The position numbers and the translations under genes are program-made. A stretch of DNA of 39,825 bases from an uncultured Oleiphilus sp. (lineage in GTDB: Bacteria > Pseudomonadota > Gammaproteobacteria > Pseudomonadales > Oleiphilaceae): contig CAJWBJ010000029.1 in NCBI GenBank assembly GCA_913020495.1, forward strand, positions 1 through 39,825, in the 5' to 3' direction. The notes below the pieces were generated by a model. It made no database searches, was not told where the DNA came from, and was given only the letters and a program-made list of their open reading frames with translations. Each line of letters opens with the position of its first letter. Position 1 is the first letter of the stretch. Shown here in pieces: positions 35,040 through 37,277 of the stretch.

Positions 35040-35909
35040 CTACTTAACGATAAAGTCTAAAACGAGCCCCACAAAAATAACTAATCCTACCCAGTTATTA
35101 TTTAAAAATGCTTTAAAACACTCATCCCGATAACGAAGCCGTATCAGGTGTTGCTGGTAAATAAACAATATTGATGCGCTCACCACCCCTAGAAAGTAAA
35201 ACTGTCCTAATTTGAGCTGATCACCAATCATACAAAGGGTTAGAACTACAAGAGTCTGTAGGAAGGCGATTATGGCGCGATCAGCATTGCCAAATAAAAT
35301 AGCCGTCGATTTCACGCCAATTTTCAAATCATCTTCTCGGTCGACCATGGCATACATCGTGTCATAAGCAACGGTCCATAATACAGTCGCGGTATAAATT
35401 AACCAGATTACCGAAGGCAGTTCATTGGTTTGAGCAGCATAAGCCATGGGAACAGCCCAGGCAAAAGCGGCTCCCAAGACCACTTGTGGTAAATAAGTGT
35501 AGCGCTTCATAAAAGGATATGCAGCTGCTAAGGCTAGGGCACCAAATGATAGATAGATGGTGAGTTCATTCGTCTGTAACACCAGTAAAAAAGCAATCAG
35601 ACAAAGTGACGCAAAAAAGATTAGCGCATTTTTAGGGCTTATTTTTCCTGTTACCAAAGGACGGTCTTTAGTCCGCTCAACGTCACCATCAATATTTCGG
35701 TCAGCAAAGTCATTAATCACACAGCCTGCAGAACGCATCAGCACACAACCCGCGACAAAAATAGCCAAAACATCTAAAGAAGGTACACCTTCAGCCGCTA
35801 ACCACAAAGCCCAGAGCGTAGGCCATAAGACCAAAAAAATACCGATGGGTTTATCAATGCGCGCAAGTTTCACGTAATTATTTACATTAGAAGTAAGACT
35901 TTTTATCAC
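35040..35909 (-). CDS. ubiA: 4-hydroxybenzoate octaprenyltransferase UbiA
   Basis: Inner-membrane prenyltransferase attaching the polyprenyl chain to 4-hydroxybenzoate in ubiquinone synthesis. It has 289 residues, the usual length, with about eight membrane spans. The first Asp motif lies in [20 protein letters not shown] and the second in [40 protein letters not shown] is also typical. I chose the GTG at 35909, with GAGAG seven bases upstream. The frame is open to a GTG at 35960, but those 17 extra codons run into the flanking repeat and terminal inverted repeat of the element at 35951-36181 and are very probably not coding. Confidence 0.96.
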
Positions 35910-36005
35910 TGATATTCTCTCTTTATATCCATTAGGAATTAACACTGAACTGAATGGCACTTACTTAAAAACAAAAAACTAAATGATTCAGTATGTTATA
36001 TTTTA

Positions 36006-36029
36006 TGTAGGTCGGAACTCATTCCGACA
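36006..36029 (+). repeat. GTAGGTCGG hairpin, left copy inside the element
   Basis: TGTAGGTCGGAA pairs with TTCCGACA around a 4-base loop. It is the mirror image of the copy at 36107-36130 and shares its stem core with the isolated hairpin at 4656-4685. Confidence 0.75.
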
Positions 36030-36106
36030 AATGTTGCAAATTTCACAACATACTTTATAAACCACTATTAATGGTAGCTAAGGCGATCACTACTAGCGTA
36101 GTATCG

Positions 36107-36130
36107 TGTCGGAATAAATTCCGACCTACA
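36107..36130 (-). repeat. GTAGGTCGG hairpin, right copy inside the element
   Basis: TGTCGGAA pairs with TTCCGACCTACA around a 4-base loop. On the minus strand it reads TGTAGGTCGGAATTTATTCC, near-identical to the left copy, so the element is palindromic at two scales. Confidence 0.75.
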
Positions 36131-36194
36131 CGGCTAAGCAGTTGAACTAGCATTAGTTTTACTCTTAAGTAAGTGCCATTCAACACTAAACAAG

Positions 36195-36710
36195 TTAATC
36201 TTCAAATACCCGTGGCATAAACAACTCACTCACTAGCAGGGGTTTATTATGTAACAAAAATACTGAGCGCCGGCCATATACGCCTTTCAAACTCTGAGCT
36301 TTGGGCATGGCAATTTCAATGGGTTTTCGTTTCATGGTTTTTGATTTAAACAAAAAGGCACCTAAAGGCCGATTCCCCATAAATTGTAGCTGCTTTTCAG
36401 CGCCTGATAAGGTCGAATTGGGAATAACACTCCGCGCTGTAACCCAAACCTTACCAACACATAGTAATTCAACTTCTCGAACCAAAGCTTTTTGCCGTGT
36501 CGGAACATTGAGTACTTTCCTTTCATCACGAGACGGATAAGCCCACCCCTGAAAAGTAACACGGACCGAAAAGTCTCCCTGCGAGGCTTTGATTAAGCGT
36601 TTGGTTAATGAACCCGCATCTAAAACCCAAGCTCTTCGGTCTCGGGGTAGAGCATTTTCAGGCACTCGCCTAAAACGACGCCAAACCATTGCACCTTGTT
36701 TTGACCACAC
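36195..36710 (-). CDS. ubiC: Chorismate pyruvate-lyase UbiC
   Basis: Cytosolic enzyme removing pyruvate from chorismate to give 4-hydroxybenzoate, the first committed step of ubiquinone synthesis and the source of UbiA's substrate. It has 171 residues. Family positions seen are the N-terminal W...SLTKRL, VREVELLC, WVTARSVIPNSTLSG (the Arg and the loop at the active site), PLGAFLF, and GRRSVFLLHNKPLLVSELFMP with the conserved Arg and Glu. The GTG at 36710 lies three bases after the hpt stop, with AAAGGG about ten bases upstream; an ATG at 36689 is the alternative. hpt-ubiC-ubiA is probably one transcript, interrupted by the element. Confidence 0.9.
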   Translation of the reverse strand: MWSKQGAMVWRRFRRVPENALPRDRRAWVLDAGSLTKRLIKASQGDFSVRVTFQGWAYPSRDERKVLNVPTRQKALVREVELLCVGKVWVTARSVIPNSTLSGAEKQLQFMGNRPLGAFLFKSKTMKRKPIEIAMPKAQSLKGVYGRRSVFLLHNKPLLVSELFMPRVFED

Positions 36711-36713
36711 CCG

Positions 36714-37277
36714 CTATAAACCCTTTACCGCATAAATTCCGGCTGCATTGCGCCAATAACCCTGATAATCCATACCAAAACCAAAAACAAAACGGTCTTC
36801 AACTATTAAGCCTTCAAAGTCTGCCTTGAAACCTTTAAACGCTTTACGGTCATGCTGTTTATCTAGTAACACAGCCGTATAAACACGCTCAGCACCTTGG
36901 GCTTCACAATAGTCAATAATGGCTTTCAGGGTATGCCCTTCATCGAGTATGTCATCCAGAATGACAACAATTCTGTTAGTCATCTCGATACTAGGCTCAA
37001 CTAACCAATCCAGGTCACCACCACTTGTTTCAGCACGATAACGCGTAGCATGTAGGTAATCGAGCTGTAAGGGGAAGTTTAAATGCGGCATCAACTGCCC
37101 GCTAAACACCAAACCACCATTCATGATGGATAACAAAATAGGGTTTTTATCGGCTAACTCATCACTGATTTCACGCCCTATTTCAGCAACGGCTTTTTGA
37201 AGTTCATCTAAAGAATATAAACAATCAGATTCATCGAAAACTTGCTGCATTTGTTGGGGGATATTCGTTTGTGACAT
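36714..37277 (-). CDS. hpt: Hypoxanthine-guanine phosphoribosyltransferase
   Basis: Purine salvage enzyme forming IMP or GMP from the free base and PRPP. It has 187 residues. The PRPP-binding motif is VVILDDILDEGHTL, and LLSIMNGGLVFSGQL is the flexible-loop region preceding LDYLHATRYR. EDRFVFGFGMDYQGYWRN is the base-binding C-terminal region of hypoxanthine-type enzymes. This pattern fits the Hpt/HPRT-like group, not Gpt. A short AGG lies upstream of the ATG. It leads directly into ubiC. Confidence 0.92.
   Translation of the reverse strand: MSQTNIPQQMQQVFDESDCLYSLDELQKAVAEIGREISDELADKNPILLSIMNGGLVFSGQLMPHLNFPLQLDYLHATRYRAETSGGDLDWLVEPSIEMTNRIVVILDDILDEGHTLKAIIDYCEAQGAERVYTAVLLDKQHDRKAFKGFKADFEGLIVEDRFVFGFGMDYQGYWRNAAGIYAVKGL

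Follow-up and report, generated by a model that had tools for sequence, protein, structure and literature searches.

Bacterial MITEs are short elements without coding capacity, carry terminal inverted repeats (TIRs), are flanked by a target duplication and are present in several copies. REPs form a separate class of mobile repeats, and their spread is attributed to RAYT transposases. The dimers of GTAG REPs are composed of a GTAG tag plus hairpin, arranged head to head (PMC3733652), and the same tag-hairpin and head-to-head anatomy is described for REPINs (PMC3116915). For CGTC REPs, no dedicated transposase is known according to the account of these repeats in PMC3733652. In A. variabilis and H. 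neapolitanus, the REP dimer is regularly located inside a longer inverted repeat (PMC3733652, section 7). These palindromes are of other sequences than those described below, and section 7 of that article links none of them to an insertion sequence (IS). As to the IS4 family, both IRL and IRR of ISPen1 are printed with the terminal sequence (T)GGCACTTACTTAA (PMC7378034).

Within a stretch of 39,825 nucleotides from an uncultured Oleiphilus sp., hereafter the window, the region between ubiC and ubiA includes an element related to all these systems (for coordinates see the table). With the ISPen1-like IS of the IS4 family it shares the terminal sequence and the duplications of 10-12 bp, and the transposase of a relative's element with these ends (L206) matches IS4 models, but the window element is only 230 bp in length and lacks a transposase. 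Unlike the described bacterial MITEs, it holds a REP dimer in its interior as a second mobile repeat. With the GTAG REPs and REPINs (PMC3733652, PMC3116915) it has the tag, the hairpin, the head-to-head dimer and free genomic copies in common, whereas the dimer in the window is enclosed in IS4 ends. Each part is already known, and the REP dimers within other palindromes (PMC3733652, section 7) are a close precedent; the open-access literature searched yielded no account of REP dimers recurring in IS4 MITEs. We conclude that the element is very probably a MITE of an ISPen1-like IS4 insertion sequence, which an IS4 transposase would have inserted after ubiC and the ancestor of which would have acquired the REPIN earlier.

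Table. Features of the ubiC-ubiA region, in positions of the window
Feature	Position	Strand	Remarks
ubiA	35040..35909	-	probable start GTG 35909-35907
Target duplication, left copy	35941..35951		AACACTGAACT; 9/11 identical to right copy when read in the family's 11-bp register
MITE	35951-36182		non-coding, about 230 bp, between ubiC and ubiA
Left TIR	35951..35968	+	TGAATGGCACTTACTTAA; family consensus GAATGGCACTTACTTAAG
Left REP	36006..36029	+	GTAG tag, then hairpin (GTAGGTCGGAACTCATTCCGACA)
Spacer between REPs	36030..36106		common to other genomic copies
Right REP	36107..36130	-	inverted, GTAG tag outward; head-to-head dimer, REPIN-like
Right TIR	36165..36182	-	perfect; exact reverse complement of left TIR
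Target duplication, right copy	36182..36192		AACACTAAACA
ubiC	36195..36710	-	upstream neighbour, same strand; name from first-pass annotation
hpt-like gene	36714..37277	-	upstream, same strand; name from first-pass annotation

The ends of the MITE are perfect inverted repeats of 18 bp, in agreement with the 17-18 bp claimed in the first-pass annotation, and the inverted pair reaches 26 nt at 88%. The first T of the left repeat overlaps the target duplication (position 35951). The claimed lack of a reading frame was borne out in that the ORF list of the window includes no ORF of at least 60 aa inside the MITE, which thus lacks a transposase gene. The two mirrored hairpins of the interior were confirmed as such, with arms of 24 nt that are 92% complementary and each a hairpin by itself, but they are better described as a pair of GTAG-tagged REPs, which are mobile repeats of another class. 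The expected folding of the transcript into a long hairpin was supported by the predicted fold of the operon-strand RNA, at -99.6 kcal/mol (z -11.2), for which none of 200 shuffled sequences was as good. By consensus scan, neither terminator-like nor promoter-like sites were detected inside the MITE, all the sites recorded (two terminator-like against 1.4 expected, two promoter-like against 3.9 expected) being located outside. The sole match in Rfam, MIR8007, scored 28.4 bits (E 0.0018), compared with a gathering score of 195, and was put down to chance similarity with a long hairpin. The ubiA ORF as listed starts inside the end repeat of the MITE, at GTG 35960. The downstream GTG given in the table, about 40 nt past the MITE, is judged from sequence to be the likelier start. 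We infer only that the long RNA hairpin might affect ubiA.

The length of the target duplication was determined from 58 non-redundant pairs with the end sequence of this MITE. Exact duplications of 10-12 bp were observed for 22 of the 58 pairs (15 pairs with 11 bp, four with 10 bp and three with 12 bp), the other 36 being without exact duplication; altogether 38 of the 58 were scored as duplicated, compared with only 21 of 3306 pairs with swapped flanks. In the register of this family, the duplication in the window matches at 9 of 11 positions, and at lengths of 7-10, 12 and 13 bp it gives at most three matches each. The flanking repeat of 10 bp with one mismatch noted earlier is present, but is therefore better read as a decayed one of 11 bp with two mismatches. 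A nine-bp duplication, our first reading from the window alone, was dropped once the family register gave 11 bp.

The end repeat was detected in 10 of 121 genomes of the family, own genome included, and the reversed control gave a single match overall. The transposase with the same ends that the first-pass annotation had proposed to look for was identified in a relative (G065), in which an element of 1507 bp (L206) is bounded by these ends and by an exact 11-bp duplication. Its ORF of 345 aa matches PF01609 at 1.2e-20 and the IS4 model NF033592 at 1.1e-49. The same IS4 transposase, at 49-100% identity, is encoded by 8 of the 13 elements that have these ends and a length of 700-2000 bp, a count in which the 100% case is the query's own element, L206; one more of the 13 carries a transposase fragment of 36 residues. 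The sole printed match found for the ends was ISPen1, again of IS4. In the own genome, of which the assembly is 83% complete, no intact cognate transposase was detected, the only trace being a fragment of 36 residues with a stop (E 2.2e-4). Likewise, protein search gave no transposase match for G022, which carries 34 ends. Among plasmids, 557 records include relatives of the transposase, none of which reaches 60% identity even where it matches best. In G001, of the same genus, the end repeat is located six times at 60-130 bp from the contig start (C5, C24, C29, C38, C42, C48), as would be expected if the assembly had been interrupted by an IS present in several copies. The sequence flanking these edge ends resembles the end of the transposase in translation by eye, and protein search of G001 for the transposase gave no match.

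The search for further copies, suggested in the first-pass annotation, yielded 19 matches in the own genome, distributed over 12 places. At 9 of the 12 places, the window included, the ends, the spacer or both are present in addition to the REP, and the other three (C163, C3:72442 and C114) are REP-only. The copies have diverged, with 81% identity over 165 positions for the best of them. At up to three mismatches, the terminal inverted repeat matches the own genome 22 times, and the reversed pattern 9 times. Matches to the MITE were observed in 4 of 58 genomes, own included, two of the four matching the end repeat only; the relative G027 carries a family member (74% over 180 positions) at a different place. 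The sequence between ends and REPs is common to the copies of the window family. Several variants were noticed in the own genome. At C3:84067-84309 (L002) and from C36:13823 on (L006), the loop of one REP is enlarged (GGGCCTGCCCCGCGA..GTGAGTGCTTTGGGT), in opposite arms after alignment in the same direction. At C123:2593-2803 (L022) and C39:1163 (L023), the same ends enclose another interior with hairpins of the GTCATCCCGG type. The copy at C169:4932-5010 (L217) is shortened, includes one REP and is itself flanked on both sides by ATCTGATAC.

The interior of the window element shows the anatomy of a REPIN, with GTAG tag plus hairpin and two such units head to head. The REP motif is of low copy number in the own genome, with 13 matches against none for the reversed control. 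Seven of these fall in copies whose end repeat can be recognised, one falls in a copy without it (C63), and five are free of the end repeat. Since the motif is TIR-free at C163 and C3:72442, both as dimers, and at C114 as a single REP, the REPs exist apart from the MITE. The 77-bp spacer in the window compares with one of about 20 bp in each of the two free dimers.

One alternative is a hairpin that regulates the hpt-ubiC-ubiA unit locally, functionally conserved and not mobile. The very stable predicted fold and the position between co-directional genes are both in its favor, but comparison of the ubiC-ubiA gap contradicts it. After ubiA was located in 13 of 13 genomes, the MITE was found to be absent between ubiC and ubiA in all of the 12 relatives, of which four belong to the same genus, the 12 gaps including neither the end repeat at up to four mismatches nor the REP at up to five. 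A stray 4-mismatch end match in G027 is within the coding part of ubiC. The proposed comparison with an empty site thus gave relatives lacking the MITE, but their gaps are too diverged for a base-exact empty site. The further copies in the own genome and the target duplication also argue against a local structure, which we regard as most improbable. A solitary element conserved at this site, which the first-pass annotation had named as the sign of such a structure, is not what was observed, because of the further copies in the genome, the absence from all 12 relatives and the autonomous IS4 element in G065. The ends, the duplication, the copies and the relatives' gaps without MITE altogether agree with the original reading as a non-autonomous transposon. 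Another alternative concerns the enzyme: a RAYT-type tyrosine transposase might move the unit and recognise the outer repeats as its ends, as in a TIRtron-like element (Di Nocera et al.). The REPs are indeed GTAG-tagged, and the own genome carries RAYT-family genes, two of three matches being above the cut-off and one of these two having stops. Also in its favor, one MITE copy, L217, is separated by about 130 bp from a RAYT-like gene that has two stops (C169:4456-4800); a REP was seen near a RAYT-like gene only through this copy. The outer ends, however, bound elements with the IS4 transposase, the duplications are 10-12 bp in length, and no REP or TIR was detected at the thresholds used within 3 kb around the RAYT-like genes on C23. 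Movement by a RAYT is thus quite unlikely, if slightly less so than the local hairpin.

Movement of the REPIN-bearing MITE by an IS4 transposase is likely to account for the ends, the duplication, the copies and the interior alike. Weighing against it are the transposase of the own genome, found as a fragment and not intact, the 34 ends of G022 with no transposase match, the 36 of 58 pairs with no exact duplication and the 26 of 46 short elements with no REP by both strict detectors. The IS4 transposase would have cut at the inverted ends and inserted the MITE just after ubiC, with duplication of 11 bp; it would act on the MITE in trans. The ancestor of the MITE would have acquired the REP dimer (REPIN) at an earlier stage, and because of this acquisition each IS4-driven jump would also have copied the REPs to a new place, the REPs hitchhiking. 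As for the order of events, we infer that the REPIN entered the MITE and do not read it directly, because among the copies of the window family none was seen that had the ends and lacked the REPs. The reverse order, in which two IS4 ends captured a pre-existing REPIN and the MITE formed around it, is possible though somewhat doubtful. It is in line with the finding that REP-bearing and other interiors have only the ends in common, as seen from 27 clusters among the matches listed. The end-to-REP sequence shared by the window-family copies speaks against it, although this sharing shows only common descent.

Recurrence of REP dimers between these ends was then examined for 46 distinct elements below 700 bp, among the matches listed, collected from the own genome, from relatives and from an exact-end scan (at least 120 stretches); in a collection of that size, a handful of exact 18-mer matches is estimated to arise by chance. 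Among these, REP dimers were detected in 15 of 46 by the dimer detector (shuffles 0.00, flanks 0/89) and REPs in 18 of 46 by the tag detector (shuffles 0.05, flanks 2/89), while tagged head-to-head dimers were present in six elements (shuffles 0, flanks 0/89). The union of the two strict detectors, again among the matches listed, covers 20 of the 46 elements and 10 of the 27 interior clusters, which may be joined through REP similarity alone, and leaves 26 short elements with no REP by both; the survey covered this single MITE family, so that the enrichment is not to be taken as specific to it. Five further elements (L081, L102, L166, L205 and L214) show REP-like hairpins by eye, missed by the detectors and left out of the counts. 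The REPs are of different types, GTAG in the window, G027 and L136, and CGTC in L103, L121, L192, L198 and others. Of the 64 CGTC-REP matches in G022, 20 are inside 11 such elements (0.06 expected), which are probably copies of one lineage; the corresponding numbers are 2 of 47 for G010 and 0 of 32 for G027. With 20 of 46 elements on the one side and these three genomes on the other, the association is strong from the side of the MITE and variable from that of the REP. Away from the listed end repeats, G022 also includes an array of five CGTC-type REP matches with alternating orientation and regular spacing (C1:471478-471666).

From these observations we tentatively propose, at somewhat below even confidence, that MITEs of ISPen1-like IS4 elements are general vehicles of REP dimers, which REPs of unrelated types, including CGTC, repeatedly entered and in which they were copied by the IS4 transposase, as a second route of spread besides the RAYTs. 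The weight of this route would differ between genomes, given the range from nil in G027 up to a third of the matches in G022. Were REP dimers indeed cargo of IS4 MITEs, a transposase of the cut-and-paste type would be another route by which REPs spread.
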